A DNA stretch of 64,000 nucleotides from Pseudomonadota bacterium (lineage in GTDB: Bacteria > Myxococcota_A > UBA796 > GCA-2862545). A program made the position numbers and the translations under genes. Each line of letters opens with the position of its first letter. Position 1 is the stretch's first letter. Below are positions 18,064-28,348 of this stretch, piece by piece. Below the pieces are notes generated by a model. It saw only the letters and a list, made by a program, of their open reading frames with translations. It did no database searches and was not told the origin of the DNA. Where the stretch lies: contig CANJMY010000008.1 in assembly GCA_947475315.1 (NCBI GenBank), positions 1 through 64,000 of the forward strand. Direction: 5' to 3'.

Positions 18064-19479
18064 ATGAACGCCACCACTCGCGTCGACGTGCTCGCGCTGC
18101 CGGTCTCAGAGGCCGGCCTGCGCGCCTTTCAAGACCTGGGCCGAGGCCCCGTGTCGGCGGAATTCGCCGGCGCCGTGGAGTCCGCGCTCTGCGGCCAGGA
18201 CGCCGTCGTGGCGCTGGAAGACCCGGGCGCGGCCACGCGCTTGCTCGTCGGCTTGGCGATCGAGCTGTCGGACACGGGCGCCGTGCTCGTGGTCGTGGCG
18301 GTCGCGGAGGTCGACGCGATGCGTGAGGCCGTCGCTCGGGCGGCGCGGCACGCGGGGCGTACCTTGGGCGACGCGGGCGCCGTTCGTGTGGTCGACGGCG
18401 GGGCGGACACGCTCCCGCTGGACGGCGTGGTGGCGGTGCTTGGGCTGCTGGGCGATCACACGCCCGCGGTGAGCGCGGCCGCCGAGGTGCTCGGCATCCA
18501 CCCGGTGCTGTGGGCCCACGCGCCGGACGCCACGCGTGTCACGGTCGAGCGGGCGTACCTCGCGGCGCTCACTGACGGTGACTCCGTCGACGCGGTGGTG
18601 CGTGTGGTCGCGGCGCGGTCGGCGGACGCCGGTCTGCTGGTGATCGTCGCGGACGCGGACGCCGTGTCGACGATCGCCGCGGGGCTGGCATCGGCCGAGC
18701 TCGACGCGCTGGTGCTCGACGTGCACGCCACGTCGCCGCGTCGCCACGCGATGGCCACCCGCGCGCGCCGCGGCGAGGTCGAGGCCCTGATCGCCACCGA
18801 GGACGCGCTGCGCGATCTCGACGGTCGTGGTTTTGGCGGCGTGCTGTTCGTTTCGCCGAGCCAGGGAGAGGCCTGGGTGGGTCGCGCCGCGCGCGCCCGC
18901 GAGGTCACGCTCCTCGTGCCCGAGGCTGATCTTGCGGAGTGGTCGGAGGCCGTCGTCCGCGCCGGTCGCGCCGCGGTGATCCGCGCGCTCCCTACGGACG
19001 CGCAGACCGAGGCCAAGCGTCTGACGCGCGTGCGTCGCGCTGTGGGCTCCCACGCGGGCAACCCTGAGCCCTGGCACGAGGCCCGCGTCCGCGAGCTGCT
19101 CGCGGCAGAGGGCGGTGTCGGCGTGCTGGCCGCCGCGCTGCGCGTCTTCCTCCGCGAGGAGCGCGAGCACGTCGTGTCCGTCGCCAACTTGTCTGAGCAC
19201 CACGCGCCGAGCACGGAGCCGAACGCGCCGCGCGCCACGCCCAAGCCCGAAGCGGCCAAGGCGGCCGAGCCCGCGACGGCAGCCTCCGCCACGGACGCAC
19301 CTCGCAAGAAGCGTCGGCGTCGGCGTCGCCGTCCGGCGGGAGAGGCCGCGTCCGTCGATGGCGCTGCGGCCGGAGCGGACGGTGACGAGGGTGACGATGA
19401 CGACTCCCCCGAGGCCGTGGAAGACGGCCCGGTGGAGATCGACATGGCGGATCTGGACGCGGTGCTCGAGGTCGAGTGA
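18064..19479 (+). CDS. Degenerate DEAD-box helicase-like protein (predicted non-catalytic)
   Basis: 471 residues; ATG two bases after the sucB stop, so co-transcribed. The layout copies a DEAD-box RNA helicase: FQDLGRGPVSAEFAGAVESAL looks like the Q-motif segment, and two RecA-like halves follow. In the second half RRHAMATRARRGEVEALIATEDALRDLD and then WVGRAARA-REVTLLVPE line up with the usual helicase motifs IV-VI (R-x(n)-F-x-x-G-x-x-x-x-LVATD-x-x-x-RGLD ... H-R-x-GR-x-x-R-A). Yet the Walker A GxGKT is replaced by ALEDPGAATR, DEAD by VAVLGL, and HRxGR by WVGRA. A basic tail (KKRRRRRRR, about residue 415) and a very acidic end follow, as in RNA-binding helicase tails. Function unknown. Confidence 0.6.
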   Translation: MNATTRVDVLALPVSEAGLRAFQDLGRGPVSAEFAGAVESALCGQDAVVALEDPGAATRLLVGLAIELSDTGAVLVVVAVAEVDAMREAVARAARHAGRTLGDAGAVRVVDGGADTLPLDGVVAVLGLLGDHTPAVSAAAEVLGIHPVLWAHAPDATRVTVERAYLAALTDGDSVDAVVRVVAARSADAGLLVIVADADAVSTIAAGLASAELDALVLDVHATSPRRHAMATRARRGEVEALIATEDALRDLDGRGFGGVLFVSPSQGEAWVGRAARAREVTLLVPEADLAEWSEAVVRAGRAAVIRALPTDAQTEAKRLTRVRRAVGSHAGNPEPWHEARVRELLAAEGGVGVLAAALRVFLREEREHVVSVANLSEHHAPSTEPNAPRATPKPEAAKAAEPATAASATDAPRKKRRRRRRRPAGEAASVDGAAAGADGDEGDDDDSPEAVEDGPVEIDMADLDAVLEVE

Positions 19480-19510: not shown

Positions 19511-20311
19511 CTACCGGCCCGTCATGCGCTCGGGCACGGGCGCGTCCGTTCGCACCACCTCGATTGCGTGCACCGGCAGACCGCGCAGGCGGAACTTGCG
19601 CTGGTAGTTCGTCTCGATGTCCTCGGGCCACGGCGCCGGGTCGCGGGTGACGTCGTAGGCGCGGGCGCGGATCTCCAGCGGCAGGCGAGGGGCGGCGTTG
19701 AGCTCGCCGTCGTGGTCGAGCATGGCGATCAGGCGCTCTACGTTGGGGAGGTGATCCGTCTTCATGCGCAGGTGCGCGCCCGGCTTGAGCAGGTCGACCA
19801 CGTCCTCCAGGAACCAGCGCGAGATCAGCCGGTTGCCCTCGTGCCGCTCCTTGGGCCACGGGTCCGGATGGTTGACATAGAGCCCGTCGATGGTGCCCGC
19901 CTCGAACAGGTCGTCGAGGAACGCTGCGTGGTAGCGGACGATGCGCGCGTTCTGGACGCCGGCGCCCCTGATCTTGGTCGCGCACATCACGGTGCGCTTG
20001 TACCGGATCTCGATGCCGACCCAGTCCCAGTCTGGGCGAAGGCCGGCCATGCCGGACAGGAAGAAGCCGTTCCCGCTGCCGATCTCCACGTGCAGCGGCG
20101 CCTGGCGACCGAACGACTCGTGCCAGCGGGCGCGGAGCTTGAATGCCTCGTTCGCGGGGATGAGCGGCAGGCCGAAGGCCCGGTGCTCGTCGACGTAGCG
20201 GTTCTCGAACGGGTGACGGAAACGACCCTCGTCGCGATCACGGTAACGAGGGCGCTCGCCCGGTGGGCGGGTGGTGGGCGCTTGGGGAGTGGGCCGTCCG
20301 AGCGAGGCCAT
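19511..20311 (-). CDS. trmB: tRNA (guanine-N7-)-methyltransferase
   Basis: 266 residues; methylates G46 of tRNA using SAM. ATG 20311 has AGGAAGG six bases upstream; a longer in-frame extension is not needed. A basic, Pro/Arg-rich leader of about 45 residues precedes the catalytic core. Core motifs: HVEIGSGNGFFLSG (SAM loop), WVGIEIRYKR, YVNHPDPWPKERHEGNRL (the TrmB signature with the catalytic Asp/Arg), and FLEDVVDLLKPGAHLRMKTDH. Convergent with the pseudo-helicase gene, 31 bases between stops. Confidence 0.94.
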   Translation of the reverse strand: MASLGRPTPQAPTTRPPGERPRYRDRDEGRFRHPFENRYVDEHRAFGLPLIPANEAFKLRARWHESFGRQAPLHVEIGSGNGFFLSGMAGLRPDWDWVGIEIRYKRTVMCATKIRGAGVQNARIVRYHAAFLDDLFEAGTIDGLYVNHPDPWPKERHEGNRLISRWFLEDVVDLLKPGAHLRMKTDHLPNVERLIAMLDHDGELNAAPRLPLEIRARAYDVTRDPAPWPEDIETNYQRKFRLRGLPVHAIEVVRTDAPVPERMTGR

Positions 20312-20769
20312 GCCGAGCCTTCCTGGCGTGAGGTGAGAGCGCGTCCGCGCCGCGACGCCACCTAACCGCGCCAAAGGGCGGATGGCGCCGCATGGGCTGC
20401 GAATGCGTGGGGTCGGGCTCTGCACCAGAGTGTGTGCATGCCCTTATTTCACGGTAGGCCCCCCGTTCGCTACATGTCGTTGGAGCCACCGGTTCTTGAG
20501 CATCCGCTCGATGTTCTGCCGAGGCTCGGCACGCTCGAACTCGCCCCGAACTTCCTGTGGGTGATGGATTTTGATGCAACTCGCGCACCTCTCTACCGAT
20601 TGCGATCCCTGGGTCGGACCGCGCGCGTGGTCGTGCAGGGTTGTGTCACACCGCCGCCACAACGCTCAGCGGGGCAGCAAATGCACCCGGACGCTCCTTG
20701 GAGAGTGCCCGTGACCGCGCTAGACAATCACGTCCGTGGCGTTACCCGACCGGGCTGGGGGATTCGAGG
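20312..20769. other. 458-bp intergenic region, no assignable gene
   Basis: This divergent spacer between trmB and the PilZ-hydrolase-methyltransferase gene is the longest gene-poor stretch in the window. Part of it (about 20440-20600) is visibly less GC-rich than its surroundings, for example CTGTGGGTGATGGATTTTGA near 20555. Short open frames exist on both strands here (about 70 codons on minus, 20444-20662; about 110 on plus, 20432-20773) but neither matches a family I know. It may contain promoters for both flanking genes, an unrecognised small RNA, or a gene remnant. GGGGGA at 20756-20761 probably serves as ribosome binding site for the gene at 20770. Confidence 0.4.
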
Positions 20770-23700
20770 ATGAGCGGCTTGAACGAAGCGTCGTCTCACA
20801 CCTCGTCCGACGAGCCCATGTCGGACGAGGCGCGGCGCGCCGACAGTCGCGGCATCAACCGCATCCCCTTGCGTCTCGCCGTGTCCGCACGCGGCGTCAG
20901 CGCGCCGCTTGGACAGACGCGCGACATCAGCCTGCAGGGCGTGTTCGTGGAGACGTCAGAGCCGTTCGACGTCGGCGCCGTGCTGCCGATCAGCCTTGAT
21001 CTGGACAGCGACGGAAAGCCTCTCATGATCCGCGCGGAGGTCGTGCGTCGCGTCTCCAACGGCATGGGCCTGCGCTTCGACGCCGAGGACCAAGCTGCGG
21101 TGCGTCGTCTGCGACGCTGGATCGTCGATCAGACGTCGGTGGTCGGCACGCAGCGCCAGGTCGAGCAGCTCCACGCCGCCAGCTCGCACGTCGAGCCGAT
21201 CCGCACGCTCGGCCGACTCCGTGAGAAGCTGGAGGAGATCCAGGCCAGCCGCGAGAAGGTCACGCTCGTGCCTCCGGATCGTCTGGCGCGCGACTACGGC
21301 CGCCTCACGCGCATCCAGCGCGACGGGATCGAGTTCGCGCTCGACGGTCGCAGCACGCTGCGTGAGGGCGAGGAGGTCTACGCGCTGATCACGCTGGCCT
21401 TCGTGTCGTACTCGTTTGGCCTCCGGGTTCTGAGCGTCGATGACAACCGGGTGCTGTGCGCGCTGCCCGAGGTCATCGTCTACTCGGAGCGTCGCTCCAA
21501 GGATCGCGCGACCGCGCCGGAGGGCACGCGCGTGCGTTGGCCGGCGCCGTGGCTGCCCGGCGCGGTGGCCGAGCTGCCCGTCGTCGATGTCAGCCGCGAA
21601 GGCCTGAGCTTCAGCCTGCCCGCGGAGCACTGCCTGCTCACGCCGGGCACGCCGCTAGATGAGGCAGAGCTGGTGTCGCAGGGCGCCAGGCGCGCGCTCC
21701 CGAGCGCCATGGTCCGCCACATCACGCGCACAGAGGGGCCGGATGGCGCCCCGTGGGTTCGGGTGGGCGTGTCCTACGGTGTGCCTGCGTCGCGTCGCGG
21801 ATCGAGCGAGTCCACGGCGATGGTTGAGGTTTCGCGCGGTGGGTTCGCCGAGCGCATGCGCCGCGTGTGGAGCGACCTCACCACCAAGCTCGGGTACGCC
21901 GCGCACAAGGGTCGCGAGAGGATCACGCCGGTCGCGGTGGCGTCCACACTCACGGCCCGCCGCATCACGATCAACGGCGGCAAGTTCCCGCTCGTGGGCA
22001 TCCTGGATCGATCGGCGTCGGGCGGGGAGCGCCTGAAGTGCCCCCTGGTCATCGTCGTGCCGGGCTTCGCGGGCCGCAAGGAGCAGATGACCTTCCTCGC
22101 GGGCACCCTCGTCGACGGCTTTCGTCGGCAGCACCGCGACATCGCCGTCCTGCGCTTCGACGGCAGCAACAACCTCGGCGAGTCCGGGAAGGACCCTGGC
22201 TGCGAAGCCGAGGGCACGCACGCCCTGCACTACACCCTCTCCGGGCTGGTCTCGGACGTGTTCACCGTGCTGACGTGGGCGCGCTCCAACACCTTCGTCG
22301 AGCCGACGCACATCATCCTGGTGTCGGTGAGTATGTCGAGCGTGGCCGTGCGCCACGTCCTGACCAAGCCCGAGTCTGCCGACGTGGGCCTGTGGGTGTC
22401 CTACATGGGCGCGCCGGACCCGGTGGACGCCATCCGCCTGGTGTCGGGCAACATCGACCTACACGGCTACTGGCAGCAGGGGCAGAAGCTCGGCATCGTG
22501 TCGCTCGGCGGCGTGCTGACCGACGGCGACCGCTTCTGGGCCGATCTTCACGCCACCGGCCTGACGGACCTGGAGTCTGCGCGCCGTGAGATGTCCGAGA
22601 TCAAGTCCGACGTCGTCTGGGTGCAGGGCAAGCACGACGCGTGGATGGACCCGCGCCGCGTGAAGTCCATGATGGACATGCCGTCGAGCGGCGCGCGTGA
22701 GTACGTCGAGGTCGACAGCGGGCATCTGCCGCGCACGAGCGACGTGGCGATCGCCCAATTCGTAAGCATCACCCAGCGCATCTATCGCGCCGTGCACCAG
22801 GACCAGCTCCCGCCGTTCTCCCCGCCGATTGGCCGCATGGCCGCCATCGCCGAGTCGGAGTGGGCGCAGGTCCGTCGCAGCCGCCTGACCGATCGCAGCG
22901 TCTGGTGGCGGAACTACCTGCTGGACTCCGAGGGCCTGGGCTTCGACATCCTGCAGTTCGACCCCGAGTACCGCACGCTCATGGACCTCCAGGCTGGCCG
23001 CGCGGCGCCCGTCGGCGGCCGCGCGCTGGAGATGGGGGCGGGGACGGGCAACCTGACGCGTCGCCTGCTCAACGCGGGCGTGGCTGAGCTGGTGGCCACT
23101 GACTTTGTGCCCGAGGCCCTGGACGCGATCCGCGGCAAGATCGGGCCGGACGAGCGCCTTTCGCTCCAGGTGCTCGACATCGAGGGCACGCCGCTCTGCG
23201 CGGTGCGCCGGTGGATCGCGGGCGACCTGTCGAGCGCGCGCGTGCTGGCGGAGCGTGTGCCGGGCGTGCACCGCCCGTCGCTCGACCTGCTGATCGACAT
23301 GGCGGACGAGGGCGTCCACGCCGCCATGATCGGCCACGGAGTCGACGTGGGCGCGCTGGCCAGCCAGCACCGCCTGACCCCGGCGTGTACTCGCCTGCTC
23401 GCCGACCTCAACCTGCTCGGTCGGCACGTCCGAGGCCGCGTGAACCAGGACGAGGTGCGCGTGGCCTTGCAGGTGCTGCCTGCGTCGCTGCTCGACGCGC
23501 CGATGGGGCTGCCGTTCCCGGACGCCAGCTTCGACGCGGTCGCCATGAGCCTGGTGCTCTCGTACCTGGACCACCCCGAGGACGTCCTGTTCGAGGCCTG
23601 GCGTGTGCTCCGCCCCGGCGGGCGCCTCCTGGTCTCTTCAATGGTGCCCGACTCAGAGAACAGCAAGCTCTACGTGGACCTCGTGTCTCGCATCGAAGTG

Positions 23701-23937
23701 ATGCCTGACGCGGAGGTGCCCGTCGGGTTCACGCGCGAAAAGCTCCTGGACTCCGCCCGCAACTTCGTGGATCATGCGGCGGAGCTGTTCCGAATCGAAG
23801 AAGAGGGGCTCTTCCGCTTCTACGACTCCGCCTCACTGGCTGAGCTTGTGTCGCGGCGCGGCTTTGTCGACGTTCAGGTCGACGTGGCCTTCGGAAACCC
23901 TCCACAGGCGGTCGTCATCACCTCCCAGAAGCCATGA
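20770..23937 (+). CDS. PilZ - YcgR-like/PilZ - LuxD-like hydrolase - methyltransferase fusion
   Basis: 1055 residues, four parts. (1) PilZ domain about 20-115 with both c-di-GMP motifs: RGINR (27-31) and DISLQG (52-57). (2) About 150-375: a YcgR-N-like barrel leading into a second PilZ with RSKDR (242-246) and DVSREG (273-278). (3) About 395-690: alpha/beta hydrolase closest in pattern to LuxD acyl-transferase/thioesterase: VVPGFAGRKEQMTFLAG, LRFDGSNNLGESG, an elbow SVSMS (nucleophile Ser 521), Asp 623 (KHDAWMD) and His 652 (SGHLP). (4) About 700-1055: class I SAM methyltransferase, LEMGAGTGNL (754-763), with about 100 inserted residues before FPDASFDAVAMSLVLSYLDHPE and WRVLRPGGRLLVSS. No signal peptide or membrane helix. 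Its stop overlaps the kinase start. Likely a c-di-GMP-controlled lipid or acyl-modifying enzyme (inference). Confidence 0.85.
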   Translation: MSGLNEASSHTSSDEPMSDEARRADSRGINRIPLRLAVSARGVSAPLGQTRDISLQGVFVETSEPFDVGAVLPISLDLDSDGKPLMIRAEVVRRVSNGMGLRFDAEDQAAVRRLRRWIVDQTSVVGTQRQVEQLHAASSHVEPIRTLGRLREKLEEIQASREKVTLVPPDRLARDYGRLTRIQRDGIEFALDGRSTLREGEEVYALITLAFVSYSFGLRVLSVDDNRVLCALPEVIVYSERRSKDRATAPEGTRVRWPAPWLPGAVAELPVVDVSREGLSFSLPAEHCLLTPGTPLDEAELVSQGARRALPSAMVRHITRTEGPDGAPWVRVGVSYGVPASRRGSSESTAMVEVSRGGFAERMRRVWSDLTTKLGYAAHKGRERITPVAVASTLTARRITINGGKFPLVGILDRSASGGERLKCPLVIVVPGFAGRKEQMTFLAGTLVDGFRRQHRDIAVLRFDGSNNLGESGKDPGCEAEGTHALHYTLSGLVSDVFTVLTWARSNTFVEPTHIILVSVSMSSVAVRHVLTKPESADVGLWVSYMGAPDPVDAIRLVSGNIDLHGYWQQGQKLGIVSLGGVLTDGDRFWADLHATGLTDLESARREMSEIKSDVVWVQGKHDAWMDPRRVKSMMDMPSSGAREYVEVDSGHLPRTSDVAIAQFVSITQRIYRAVHQDQLPPFSPPIGRMAAIAESEWAQVRRSRLTDRSVWWRNYLLDSEGLGFDILQFDPEYRTLMDLQAGRAAPVGGRALEMGAGTGNLTRRLLNAGVAELVATDFVPEALDAIRGKIGPDERLSLQVLDIEGTPLCAVRRWIAGDLSSARVLAERVPGVHRPSLDLLIDMADEGVHAAMIGHGVDVGALASQHRLTPACTRLLADLNLLGRHVRGRVNQDEVRVALQVLPASLLDAPMGLPFPDASFDAVAMSLVLSYLDHPEDVLFEAWRVLRPGGRLLVSSMVPDSENSKLYVDLVSRIEVMPDAEVPVGFTREKLLDSARNFVDHAAELFRIEEEGLFRFYDSASLAELVSRRGFVDVQVDVAFGNPPQAVVITSQKP

Positions 23938-26459
23938 TCGAGCAAGTCTCCCAGCAGTTCGAACGGGAACTAAGGCGCACCGGCGCACCGATGGTCCGGG
24001 TGGCCACGGCGCTGGGCACCATGGCGATCGTCGGCATGGCGTTGGTAGACCCATACTTGGCGGCTGGGGACGATCTGCACTGGGCGCGCTGGGTCCGCCT
24101 GGTGTCGTCGCTGATGCTCATGGCGATCTACGCGGCGACGTACGTCGGCGACTGGAAGGGCGAGAAGGTCCGGCCCGCGGCGATCGCCAGCGCGGTCATC
24201 ACGGGCGGCGCGGTCATCATGCTGGCCTACTTCACGGGCGGCGGCGACAGCGACTACCACGAGGCCGTCTACGTCACGATCTTCGGCTACGCGATGCTGC
24301 CGATCCCCTGGAAGCGGTGGGACACGCTGGTCGTGTACATCGGGTTCATCGTCTTCTACGACAGCCTGTTGCTGCTGGGCGGACGGCCCGGCACTTGGGG
24401 CGCGCTCCTCACGCACAACGCGCTGCTCGGCGCCGCCACGTTCATCTCCGTCATCTTGCAGGGCATCATCCGCCGCAGCCGCCTCAACGAGTTCGCGCAG
24501 CGCGCCGAGCTGGCGAGCGCGAACGAGCGGTTGACTGCGCTTGACGAGGCCAAGACGCGCTTCTTCGCGAACTTGAGCCACGAGCTGCGGACGCCGCTGA
24601 CCCTCACGCTGGCGCCGCTGGACGCGCTGCTGGAGTCGTCCCGCGAGCCGCTCTCGGATGGTCAGCGCGAGAAGCTGGCGCTGGCCCAGCGCAACGCCCT
24701 GCGCCTGCTGCGTCAGGTCGACGATCTGTTGGCCCTGACCCGTGCCGAGGCCGCGAGCCTTAACCTGCAGATCTCCGATCTGGATCTGGTGGCGACGCTG
24801 CGTGAACTCGCCGGGGACATCGGGGAGCTGGCGCGGCGCAAGCGCATCTCGCTCGAGCTCAAGGCGGATGACGGCCTGCCCACGGTCAGCGCCGACGCGC
24901 AGCTGGTCGAGCGCGTGCTGCTCAACGTGATCGGCAACGCGGCCAAGTTCGTGAAGGAGGGCGGTCGCATCGTGCTGGGCGCCCGCCTTGTGGACAACGG
25001 CATCGACCTCACGGTCGAGGACAACGGCATCGGCATCAGCGCGAACGACCTGCCGCGCATCTTCGACCGCTTCTACCAGGCCGACAGCGGTAACAGGCGC
25101 GCGTTCGGCGGCACCGGCATCGGGCTTGCCCTGGCCCGCGAGATCGTCGAGCTGCACGGTGGTCGCATCCGCGCCGAGAGCGAGCTTGGCGTCGGGACGA
25201 CCATCCATTGCTGGTTCCCGCTGACCCTGCCGCCGTTCGCCGCCAAGCTGGCCAAGGTCGCGCCGTCGCGCACCAACCCTGAGGACGCGGGCCTGCCTGA
25301 GTGGCACGACGCCATCCGCACCGCGGCGAACTACCGTTTCCAGGGCATCGCCGACGCCACTGAGCGCCGCATCGCTCCGCGCCCGCAGCCCAAGGGGCAG
25401 GTGCCGACCGTCCTGGTGGTCGAGGACAACCCGGACATGATCCGGTTCATCTCGGCGCTGCTCGGCCACGACTACAACGTCCGCTCTGCGACCGATGGCG
25501 AGCAGGGTCTGCGCTACGCGACCGAGCACCGGCCCGATCTGATCATCAGCGACGTGATGATGCCGGTGATGGACGGCCTGGAGATGGGCCGCGAGCTGCG
25601 TAAGTCGCCGGCGACCAGCGCCATCCCGCTGATCTACCTGACCGCGCGCGGCGCGCCGGACGACCGCGTGCAGGGCATGGGATCAGGCGCGGACACCTAC
25701 CTCGCCAAGCCGTTCCGGAACGAGGAGCTGCTGGCGTCGGTCGAGTCGCTGCTCTCTCGTCAGCGCAACGTACGCGAGGCCGCCGTGCTCCGCCAGGACG
25801 AGGCGATCGTCTACATGGCGTCGGGGATCGCCGAGGCGCTGGACTCGACCGTCAACTCGCTGAGCGCGGCCCGCGACGCGCTGGCGGTGACGCCCAAGCT
25901 CTCAGCCCCTATCGAGGCCGCGCTCGTCCCGCTGCTCGACCTCTCGGTCGCGCTGACTGAGTTCACGCGCGCGGGCGTGAAGGCGGTCGACGTGGCTGCC
26001 AGCCTGTCGGCCGTGATCGCGCAGGCGGTCGCCGCGATCAACGTCCGTCGTAGCGCCCCTGGCGTCGAGATCCACGTGCAGGTCGAGTCCGGCGTGCGTG
26101 CTGGCCTTCGTGAGGACGAGCTAGCGCGCGTGGTCACCGCGGTGATGGGCCGCGCCGTTCGGGTCACGCCCGCGGGCCGGAACGTGTTCGTCAGCGCGCA
26201 TGTGGGCGAGCCCGGCAGCGTAGCGCTGACGATCACCGACCAGGGGCCCACGCTCTCGCCGACGCAGCTTGAGCGCCTGTTCTTCCCGTTCAACGAGGTC
26301 TCACCCAGCGGTCCGGGCGGCGTTCGCGCCGGCATGGCGCTGACCCACGCGGGCCGGCTGGTCACCGCGCGTGGTGGGGCGTTGTCCGTCGAGGTGGGCA
26401 TCGCGGGCGGTACCACCGTGTCGATCCGGCTGCCCCTGTGGACCGAGGGCGGACCGTGA
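23934..26459 (+). CDS. Membrane hybrid histidine kinase with receiver and second, degenerate kinase module
   Basis: 841 residues; ATG 23934 overlaps the previous stop (ATGA). N-terminal 190 residues contain about five to six hydrophobic helices, an integral membrane sensor of unrecognised type. HisKA: FANLSHELRTPL, phospho-acceptor His 216. HATPase: N box NVIGNAAKFV, G1 VEDNGIGIS, F box FDRFYQ, G2 GGTGIGLALAREI. Receiver about 485-605 with VLVVEDNPDM, phospho-Asp 540 (LIISDVMMP) and KPF. After that, about 620-841, a helical dimerisation-like segment without a His-Glu motif and an ATPase-like end (ITDQGPTLS ... MALTHAGRLVTARGG ... GGTTVSIRLPL) in which the G boxes are decayed. The following GGDEF/EAL gene starts inside its stop codon. 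Confidence 0.9.
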   Translation: MIEQVSQQFERELRRTGAPMVRVATALGTMAIVGMALVDPYLAAGDDLHWARWVRLVSSLMLMAIYAATYVGDWKGEKVRPAAIASAVITGGAVIMLAYFTGGGDSDYHEAVYVTIFGYAMLPIPWKRWDTLVVYIGFIVFYDSLLLLGGRPGTWGALLTHNALLGAATFISVILQGIIRRSRLNEFAQRAELASANERLTALDEAKTRFFANLSHELRTPLTLTLAPLDALLESSREPLSDGQREKLALAQRNALRLLRQVDDLLALTRAEAASLNLQISDLDLVATLRELAGDIGELARRKRISLELKADDGLPTVSADAQLVERVLLNVIGNAAKFVKEGGRIVLGARLVDNGIDLTVEDNGIGISANDLPRIFDRFYQADSGNRRAFGGTGIGLALAREIVELHGGRIRAESELGVGTTIHCWFPLTLPPFAAKLAKVAPSRTNPEDAGLPEWHDAIRTAANYRFQGIADATERRIAPRPQPKGQVPTVLVVEDNPDMIRFISALLGHDYNVRSATDGEQGLRYATEHRPDLIISDVMMPVMDGLEMGRELRKSPATSAIPLIYLTARGAPDDRVQGMGSGADTYLAKPFRNEELLASVESLLSRQRNVREAAVLRQDEAIVYMASGIAEALDSTVNSLSAARDALAVTPKLSAPIEAALVPLLDLSVALTEFTRAGVKAVDVAASLSAVIAQAVAAINVRRSAPGVEIHVQVESGVRAGLREDELARVVTAVMGRAVRVTPAGRNVFVSAHVGEPGSVALTITDQGPTLSPTQLERLFFPFNEVSPSGPGGVRAGMALTHAGRLVTARGGALSVEVGIAGGTTVSIRLPLWTEGGP

Positions 26460-28348
26460 GCGCGGGGCGGCGGTCGCTCGGGCTGTCTGCGGTCGCGTCG
26501 GCCGCCATGGCTGCTGGGCTCGCGTCGCTCGCCTATGCGGCGGACCATGGCGCGATCAGCGCGGGGATCGCGGGCTTGGCGGGCGGCGCGGCGGCTTGGG
26601 CTGGCATGCGTCGAGGCCTGCCGTCCGAGCAGGAGCAGCGGAGCCGACGAATCCTAAGCGTCGGCTCAGGCGCGTGCCTGTTCACCTGGGGTCCCGACGA
26701 CGACCTCTGGTTCTCGGACGGCTGGACCGAGGCCTTCGACATCCCGAGCGGGTCGCACACCCAGCCCGAGGTGTGGCTGGGTCGGGTCCATCCTGAGGAC
26801 TTCGGCGCGCTCGTCCACGGGATCGGCGCGGTGCGGTCCGGTGAGCAGGCCGTGTTGCGGCAGCACTACCGAATCCGCTGCGGCGAGGACTGGCACTGGT
26901 TTGACCTGCACGCACGGCGCGTTGAGGACGGGGGAGCGTTGGTGGTCGCGGGCGCGGTGCAGGACGTCACGCTCGCGCACTCCATGCAGACTCGGCTGGC
27001 ACACTCGGCGTTCCACGACCCGCTCACGGGCCTGCCCAACCGCGCGCTCTTCCTGGACCGGCTGGAGCACAGCACAGCGCGTGCGCGTCGCAACCCGCTG
27101 CACCGCTTCGCCGTGGTGTTCATCGACGTCGACAACTTCAAGGTGATCAACGACAGCTTGGGGCACCACGCGGGCGACGAGCTGCTCGACATCGTGGCCA
27201 AGCGGCTGGCGGCGTGCGCGCGGACTGGCGACACCGTCGCGCGCATCGGCGGCGACGAATTCACCGTCCTGCTCGAGCCGGTCGACAGCCCAGACGACGC
27301 AGACAAGGTCGCCCTACGCCTGCGCAACGCGGTTCACGGCAGCGCGCTCGTGGCGGGGCACCCCGTCGAGATCAGCACCAGCGTCGGCATCGCCTTCAGC
27401 AGCCCAGACTACACGGACGCGCTGGACCTGCTGCGCGACGCAGACACCGCGATGTACTACGCGAAGCGCGCGGGACCTGGGAACCAGCGCCGCTTCGATC
27501 AGGCCATGCACGAGTCCGCCAAGCGGCGTCTGAGCGTGGAAACCGAGCTTCGTCGTGGCCTTGAGGGCGATGGCCTGCTGGTCTACTACCAGCCGATCGT
27601 CAGCCTGCTGACCGGGCAGCTCGACGGCTTTGAGGCGCTTGTCCGCCTGATCGCGTCGAACGGCGCGCTGATCAGCCCGGCCGAGTTCATCCCGCTGGCC
27701 GAGAGCCAGGGGCTGATCGACAAGGTGCTCGACCGCGTGCTGGCCGACACCACGGCGCGCTTGGCCGAGTGGTCCACGGTGATGCCGGAAATCTACGTGA
27801 GCGTGAACGTGAGCGCGCGCTCGGTCGGCGCAGGGCTGGTGGCCAAGGTGCGCGACGCGCTCGCCGTCCACGACCTGAGCACGGCCCGCATCAAGCTCGA
27901 GCTCACCGAGAGCGTGCTGGTCGAGCCCTCCAGCCAGGTGGCGCAGTCGCTGATCACGCTGGGCGCCATGGGCGTGGGCTTGTTCATCGACGACTTCGGC
28001 ACGGGCTACTCGTCGCTCGCGTACCTGCACCAGTTCCCGGTGTCGCGGATCAAGCTGGACCGCACGTTTGTCATGGCGCTCGACGGCGATCACGTGCCCG
28101 AGATCGTCGAGACGATCGTGACCCTGTCCGCGAGCATCGGCGCCAAGGTGATCGCCGAGGGCATCGAGACGGCGACTCAGCTGGAGGCGCTGATCGCGCG
28201 CGGCTGCTCGTCCGGGCAGGGCTTCCTGTTCGCGCCTGCGCTGCCCGGCGACAAGGCCGCGCAGCTGGTGCACGAGCGCCGCGGCTGGCCGCTCACCACG
28301 ACGACGCGCCCCGTTCTCCTGTCGCGCGCGCCAACGGCCAGCGCCTAG
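26456..28348 (+). CDS. PAS-GGDEF-EAL c-di-GMP cyclase/phosphodiesterase
   Basis: 630 residues. GTG 26456 overlaps the kinase stop (GTGA). One or two hydrophobic stretches at the N-terminus (about 10-50), then a PAS fold about 70-180 (CLFTWGPDDDLWFSDGWTEAF, with PAC-like end VVAGAVQDVT). GGDEF domain: catalytic GGDEF at 265-269 and, five residues before it, RTGD matching the RxxD inhibitory site. EAL domain: FEALVRL (EAL 393-395), NVSA, ELTES, DDFGTGYSSLAYL, KLDRTF, AEGIET, all expected catalytic and metal residues present. Both activities therefore look intact. As last gene of the unit it is a natural source and sink of ligand for the two PilZ domains. Four-base convergent overlap with the MFS gene. 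Confidence 0.95.
   Translation: MSAGRRSLGLSAVASAAMAAGLASLAYAADHGAISAGIAGLAGGAAAWAGMRRGLPSEQEQRSRRILSVGSGACLFTWGPDDDLWFSDGWTEAFDIPSGSHTQPEVWLGRVHPEDFGALVHGIGAVRSGEQAVLRQHYRIRCGEDWHWFDLHARRVEDGGALVVAGAVQDVTLAHSMQTRLAHSAFHDPLTGLPNRALFLDRLEHSTARARRNPLHRFAVVFIDVDNFKVINDSLGHHAGDELLDIVAKRLAACARTGDTVARIGGDEFTVLLEPVDSPDDADKVALRLRNAVHGSALVAGHPVEISTSVGIAFSSPDYTDALDLLRDADTAMYYAKRAGPGNQRRFDQAMHESAKRRLSVETELRRGLEGDGLLVYYQPIVSLLTGQLDGFEALVRLIASNGALISPAEFIPLAESQGLIDKVLDRVLADTTARLAEWSTVMPEIYVSVNVSARSVGAGLVAKVRDALAVHDLSTARIKLELTESVLVEPSSQVAQSLITLGAMGVGLFIDDFGTGYSSLAYLHQFPVSRIKLDRTFVMALDGDHVPEIVETIVTLSASIGAKVIAEGIETATQLEALIARGCSSGQGFLFAPALPGDKAAQLVHERRGWPLTTTTRPVLLSRAPTASA

Follow-up and report, generated by a model that had tools for sequence, protein, structure and literature searches.

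A PilZ-fused hydrolase/methyltransferase kept beside one kind of membrane kinase: a possible c-di-GMP-gated lipid-signal locus

Why should an enzyme with receptor domains for cyclic diguanylate (c-di-GMP), a membrane sensor kinase, and a GGDEF-EAL protein be encoded in three genes, each overlapping the next? The arrangement lies in a 64,000-nucleotide stretch (hereafter the window) of contig 8, CANJMY010000008.1, in the 3.48 Mb, 85% complete assembly of an uncultured lake bacterium, and an original prediction, made from the letters of the window, proposed it as a self-contained local signaling system that gates an acyl- or methyl-transferring enzyme. c-di-GMP is usually seen as acting on motility, adhesion, and transcription, and to our knowledge few metabolic enzymes are switched by it in cis. 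The answer reached here is that the enzyme and the kinase are kept side by side across the phylum, and that the locus may encode a fatty-acyl hydrolase/methyltransferase gated by c-di-GMP, with the partner kinase sensing its lipid product, a reading to which we give a probability of about 0.45. The genes and their overlaps, which are as originally described, are the following.

20770 to 23937, + strand: gene 1, 1055 amino acids, a fusion of PilZ, YcgR-like PilZ, LuxD-like α/β hydrolase, and class I S-adenosylmethionine (SAM) methyltransferase
23934 to 26459, + strand: gene 2, 841 amino acids, membrane hybrid histidine kinase
26456 to 28348, + strand: gene 3, 630 amino acids, transmembrane (TM)-PAS-GGDEF-EAL
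23934 to 23937, + strand: ATGA start/stop overlap of genes 1 and 2, 4 bases, kept in relatives
26456 to 26459, + strand: GTGA start/stop overlap of genes 2 and 3, 4 bases

Conservation of the enzyme-kinase pair

The original prediction made its system depend on the genes co-occurring in other genomes, and they do. Gene 1 was used as a protein query on a sample of 284 genomes of the phylum, 46 of which have a relative. At 44 of 45 distinct loci a hybrid kinase gene stands beside that relative, adjacent or one transporter away, with one further gene between enzyme and kinase at L079; the sole exception, L085, is a contig edge. Outside the clade that carries MMPL transporters, 17 of 23 loci show a 4-base overlap of the enzyme and kinase genes and four more an overlap of 8 bases; those at L072-L074 are less sure, since the start codon in the overlap would be TTG there. 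Relatives that are 38-54% identical show the gene order and the overlaps again. The reciprocal test, in which a profile of the kinase sensor was run on 58 related genomes, returned 15 matches with E ≤ 1e-45 that are exactly the 15 enzyme loci, and the next match scored 1e-32. Maximum-likelihood trees of the enzyme and the kinase agree, with a 15-row clade at 99% in both, a five-row clade of genus g15, and an 8-row clade of family f18. Because family f45, which belongs to another class, nests with the window's family in both trees and so contradicts the taxonomy, the pair moves together.

Gene overlaps are common in compact GC-rich genomes, and this is what could be said for an ordinary cluster of unrelated genes held by chance or by vertical descent. 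That explanation is contradicted by the pairing at 44 of 45 loci in many families, by trees that agree with each other against the taxonomy, and by the reciprocal 15 of 15, and we consider it extremely improbable. The three-gene arrangement is beyond chance.

The company that the pair keeps varies by clade. In the window's clade (type A) the loci consist of enzyme, kinase, and GGDEF-EAL genes, the last directly downstream at 10 of the 11 loci with room for it; the GGDEF-EAL gene of L044 breaks off after the PAS part, L037, L048, L050, and L057 end at contig edges, and L049 is without the gene. Gene 3 is a clade-specific addition and lies outside the core. In genus g15 of family f2 (type B) the pair is preceded by a gene for a soluble REC-histidine kinase (REC-HK) and followed by a convergent gene for REC-EAL or EAL; a REC-HATPase gene is found upstream at L049 and L050 too, and a convergent REC-GGDEF-EAL gene at L077. 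In a distant clade of 22 rows (type C), where the first PilZ domain is missing, an MMPL/HAE3 resistance-nodulation-division (RND) transporter is encoded at 21 of the 22 loci, between the two genes or divergent from them, and soluble REC-HK genes occur at several. MMPL/HAE3 transporters are an exporter type for hydrophobic molecules and lipids. There is no MMPL transporter near the window's locus, and 10 MMPL matches elsewhere in that genome. Type D (G036, G046, and G027) comprises weaker sensor relatives, where the kinase gene is followed by one for a PilZ plus class I methyltransferase protein (494 amino acids) and then by a soluble REC-HK gene. As a separate observation, a gene for an amine-oxidase/FAD-dependent oxidoreductase lies between transporter and kinase at L079:5142-6431, possibly a further tailoring step.

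Domains of the gene 1 enzyme

20833 to 21123, + strand: PilZ domain 1, residues 22-118 (PF07238, E = 4e-16), R27xxxR31 and D52xS54xxG57 intact
21220 to 21798, + strand: YcgR-like region, an N-terminal barrel plus PilZ domain 2 (R242xxxR246 and a DxSxxG ending at G278)
21982 to 22839, + strand: LuxD-like α/β hydrolase domain, with 1THT as both best profile match and best fold match
22840 to 23934, + strand: class I SAM methyltransferase domain, motif I GAGTGN, Methyltransf_11 (PF08241, E = 5e-17), seen by Pfam in two stretches
23191 to 23484, + strand: all-helical insert of ~98 residues between the methyltransferase halves, predicted local distance difference test (pLDDT) score of the model mostly 75-93

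Gene 1 had been described as a double-PilZ fusion enzyme, and that description stands, although the second PilZ domain is found by motifs and fold. Taken alone in the window protein, that domain (~238-340) is under the Pfam cut-off at E = 0.016, and a profile of residues 150-340 has PP4397 and YcgR as its top Protein Data Bank (PDB) matches, weak at E = 0.009-0.03. We accept it because RxxxR and DxSxxG are present and because the AlphaFold model of residues 1-350 (pLDDT of 67) has fold matches to MrkH, PP4397, YcgR, and VCA0042 with E from 1e-10 to 1e-4. A motif scan finds RxxxR and DxSxxG in both copies in the window, and at least one canonical copy (RxxxR with [DN]xSxxG) at 39 of the 44 loci where the contig includes the N-terminus. 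Gene 1 holds the sole above-cut-off PilZ domain of the window's incomplete assembly, and the more complete congener has one further. The motifs lead us to infer c-di-GMP binding by gene 1, at one PilZ domain or at both.

The 16 full-length relatives of gene 1, which are 28-95% identical, align end to end. No Pfam model detects the central hydrolase domain in the window's protein; in particular Acyl_transf_2, the LuxD family proper, has no match there and matches 4 of 28 relatives weakly, with a best E of 7e-4. Searched against PDB, the 28-sequence hydrolase profile has the LuxD myristoyl-acyl carrier protein (ACP) thioesterase 1THT first at E = 1.5e-8, with the runner-up at 1.5e-3. A fold search with the model of residues 395-1055 (pLDDT of 73) also has 1THT on top, at E = 3.5e-11, followed by lipases and feruloyl esterases. 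The triad of Ser521 (22330), Asp623 (22636), and His652 (22723) is invariant in 28 of 28 hydrolase sequences. NCBIfam returns generic methyltransferases only, far under cut-off. The helical insert of the methyltransferase, present in the window's clade, is missing from the distant relatives of the g15 and MMPL clades and may serve as a lid or as a substrate domain. A search for plasmid copies of gene 1 gave none.

Homology thus supports gene 1 as a predicted acyl-active, methyl-transferring enzyme, and this part of the original claim is kept along with the intact PilZ motifs. The joining of all three genes in one system survives the co-occurrence test, with the third gene as an addition of the window's clade.

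The membrane kinase and its relatives at phc-like loci

23934 to 24515, + strand: membrane sensor of the 6-TM type, D39, R55, and Y108 invariant, common to kinases of phc-like loci
24549 to 25226, + strand: HisKA (His216 at 24579) and HATPase_c, by Pfam and alignment
25410 to 25742, + strand: receiver domain (Asp540 at 25551), by Pfam and alignment
25806 to 26438, + strand: degenerate second kinase module, phospho-acceptor His lost, a second HATPase stretch seen by Pfam

Pfam finds HisKA, HATPase, and REC in gene 2, in agreement with its earlier assignment as a membrane hybrid kinase, and in the kinase alignment H216 is invariant, D540 is nearly so, and the HATPase is present. The second module has lost its acceptor His in the window's clade but kept it in the MMPL clade and in L049-L055; the window's module is a pseudokinase derived from an active kinase. 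With the gene 2 sensor profile, the 6-TM domain of ImcA (8WCN) is found at E = 1e-4. ImcA is a diguanylate cyclase with a 6-TM sensor, and its partner IsmP senses iron (PMC10904736). In a related genome, at L109:9323-10450, the same sensor domain is fused to GGDEF, as in ImcA.

A relationship to the Phc quorum-sensing genes comes in through type D. PhcB is the synthase and PhcS the sensor of 3-OH fatty acid methyl esters (PMC8578825, PMC6989110), the gene order being phcBSRQ and PhcR having a REC-HK make-up (PMC8578825). The methyltransferase of type D has a match (E = 5e-20) on a plasmid of Paraburkholderia graminis, in a methyltransferase-kinase-response regulator-response regulator operon at L114:4440-8815 (NZ_CP024936.1 432595-436970), which is phc-type by gene order (phcBSRQ) only. 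The N-terminal ~100 residues of the Paraburkholderia methyltransferase align with the type-D PilZ domain without having its motifs. The N-terminus of the Paraburkholderia kinase scores 82 bits against the sensor profile, which was built solely from gene-1-adjacent kinases, and a type-D kinase scores 68 bits. Three loci (L106:21-5556, L108:6397-12198, and L110:3918-9118) encode a hybrid kinase of the same sensor family, a PilZ plus phc-type methyltransferase with the RxxxR and DxSMNG motifs intact, and a soluble REC-HK, and are apparently c-di-GMP-linked phc-like loci in related genomes. The window's operon is without genes for PhcR (receiver plus kinase) and PhcQ (receiver), and GGDEF-EAL stands in their place. 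Because the PhcR and PhcQ genes and a match to Acyl_transf_2 were looked for and not found, we assign the locus neither to Phc nor to LuxD proper.

The GGDEF-EAL gene and the surroundings of the locus

27008 to 27475, + strand: GGDEF domain, with the signature GGDEF and the RxxD motif of the inhibitory site
27545 to 28237, + strand: EAL domain, with EALVR, N451, E482, DD512-513, K533, E568, and Q588 conserved

The conserved motifs bear out gene 3 as a PAS-GGDEF-EAL protein with both catalytic sites intact: GGDEF, RxxD, and every EAL catalytic residue are invariant in six aligned orthologs, and Pfam gives a weak PAS_3, GGDEF, and EAL. In NCBIfam, gene 3 comes nearest to bifunctional phosphodiesterase models such as that of DibA, none reaching its cut-off, and these do not tell whether gene 3 on balance makes or breaks c-di-GMP. 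Gene 3 is probably the clade's own means of setting c-di-GMP near the enzyme, with predicted catalytic activity. The proposal that the system is self-contained is not upheld. There are 9 GGDEF domains in the window's genome and 16 in the congener, and with other GGDEF proteins encoded in the genome the locus may not be isolated from the global c-di-GMP.

Upstream, a gene that is trmB-like by its sequence (19511-20311) is divergent from gene 1 across a gap of 458 bases, and at the other end the 3' end of gene 3 faces a convergent major facilitator superfamily (MFS) gene, so that the three genes form a closed unit. An open reading frame of 113 amino acids at 20432-20773, overlapping gene 1 by 4 bases, was discarded as a fourth member; its frame is broken and it is unconserved within the same genus. 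The sucA/sucB genes and the trmB-like upstream gene were rejected as members, being confined to their own genus and missing at the relatives' loci, as was a divergent gene of 834-850 amino acids (L044-L047, L074), a lineage-local penicillin-binding transglycosylase/transpeptidase by sequence.

A same-genus relative of the window's genome is a lake metagenome-assembled genome, Kiruna bin-11227. A block at 20676-20748, just upstream of gene 1, is kept in the same-genus relative amid divergent surroundings and is a possible promoter or leader. After sucB, 18064-19479 encodes a conserved protein of 471 amino acids with an arginine-rich basic stretch and no Pfam match, which by eye looks like a degenerate helicase.

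What the locus may do

In the reading we prefer, c-di-GMP binding at the PilZ domain or domains of gene 1 would switch the LuxD-like hydrolase, which would take a fatty-acyl group off a thioester or lipid, freeing or transferring it. The fused methyltransferase would methylate the acyl product, giving for example a fatty acid methyl ester. The 6-TM domain of gene 2 would read this membrane-soluble product, or the membrane state that it sets, and phosphate would pass from His216 to Asp540 and on to further partners. Gene 3, made from the same message, would set c-di-GMP through PAS-GGDEF-EAL and with it the activity of the enzyme. The acyl substrate is suggested by kinship with LuxD and lipases, its methylation by homology and by the fusion of hydrolase and methyltransferase, and the reading by the kinase, whether of product or altered membrane, by the pairing of enzyme and kinase together with the kinship of the sensor.

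Several findings weigh against this. The fold match to 1THT is at ~14% identity and other lipases and feruloyl esterases are close behind by a modest margin, which leaves the substrate class uncertain. PilZ 1 carries the variant D-x-N/T-x-x-G in four relatives, and the motif is missing from L077, so control by c-di-GMP may not hold everywhere. The same sensor fold sits on the diguanylate cyclase ImcA, which has no known lipid ligand (PMC10904736). The second kinase module and the methyltransferase insert are without an assigned role.

A diffusible-signal form of the preferred reading would have a secreted quorum-sensing signal resembling a fatty acid methyl ester, a kinase receptor in the manner of PhcB/PhcS, and production timed by c-di-GMP. 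The sensor is homologous to that of the phc-ordered operon kinase and to those of kinases beside PilZ-methyltransferases, many loci have soluble REC-HK genes with a PhcR-like domain make-up (PMC8578825), and an MMPL exporter is there at 21 of 22 distant loci; a PhcR-like gene is missing at the window's own locus, however, the phc operon has no counterpart of the hydrolase fusion, and no signal molecule is known, so that we hold this form to be possible and rather unlikely. We are similarly tentative, and lean toward doubt, about a phylum-wide family of c-di-GMP-gated lipid-signal systems, in which a PilZ-controlled synthase (LuxD-like hydrolase plus methyltransferase, or PhcB-like methyltransferase) would be matched one-to-one with a phc-type kinase receptor, often with an MMPL exporter.

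The enzyme might instead edit a phospholipid or envelope lipid at high c-di-GMP, during surface life, with the kinase sensing the state of the membrane and not a signal. A hydrolase of the LuxD/lipase type, an MMPL/HpnN-like transporter in the distant clade, and a membrane-embedded sensor with no evident periplasmic domain would all fit such lipid remodeling, but the enzyme itself lacks a membrane segment and the sensor is kin to those of phc-type loci, not to known membrane-stress kinases; we think it unlikely. Quite unlikely, in our judgment, is control by phosphorelay from the kinase to the GGDEF-EAL protein or to other regulators, the enzyme being a downstream target without feedback and the genes staying together through shared regulation. 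The hybrid kinase does carry a receiver, and REC-EAL and REC-GGDEF-EAL genes are found at other loci, but it is the enzyme and the kinase that are the conserved pair, the c-di-GMP enzyme is often absent (the MMPL clade, L049), and gene 3 in the window has no receiver domain.

The preferred reading, a c-di-GMP-gated acyl enzyme with its product read by the kinase, is of interest in that a predicted acyl-active/methyltransferase enzyme carries its own receptor domain and is inseparable, phylum-wide, from one kind of sensor kinase. Were the product a signal, c-di-GMP would be tied directly and in cis to lipid-based communication between cells, and the 6-TM phc-type sensors would gain new candidate ligands. 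The gene pairing renders the idea testable.

Comparison with known systems

Four points go beyond the original prediction: the kinship with LuxD, the pairing with the kinase throughout the phylum, the variants with a transporter, and the tie of the sensor to phc-like loci. Each part is known individually, and both a PilZ-controlled enzyme and a synthase-plus-kinase pair are known kinds; their combination looks previously undescribed. In a literature search of partial coverage, weak evidence in itself, neither the fusion of PilZ, LuxD-like hydrolase, and methyltransferase nor its pairing with the kinase turned up, and a study that deleted all 24 PilZ genes of Myxococcus xanthus names no hydrolase or methyltransferase in its main text (PMC8316039).

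The c-di-GMP receptors YcgR, MrkH, PP4397, and VCA0042 have the fold of the N-terminal half of gene 1 in common with it and the same RxxxR and DxSxxG motifs, but they are regulators of motility or transcription, not enzymes, and gene 1 adds a PilZ domain before the YcgR-like part. Bacterial cellulose synthase, BcsA, is an established PilZ-controlled enzyme and like gene 1 has the PilZ domain in cis; it is of another enzyme class, whereas gene 1 is paired with a sensor kinase. LuxD (1THT) has the Ser/Asp/His triad of the gene 1 hydrolase, in a match spanning most of the domain at ~14% identity, and in gene 1 the hydrolase is fused between PilZ domains and methyltransferase. ImcA has, by profile (8WCN), a sensor domain of the same family as gene 2, on a diguanylate cyclase where gene 2 is a kinase. 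The Phc system of Ralstonia (PhcB-PhcS-PhcR-PhcQ) is like the window in having adjacent genes for a methyltransferase and a membrane kinase; the sensor homologous to that of gene 2 belongs to the phc-ordered Paraburkholderia operon, whose Phc likeness rests on gene order, and PhcR is resembled by the soluble REC-HK genes at some relatives' loci. Relative to Phc, the window has PilZ domains and a LuxD-like hydrolase fused to its methyltransferase, and its kinase is a hybrid.

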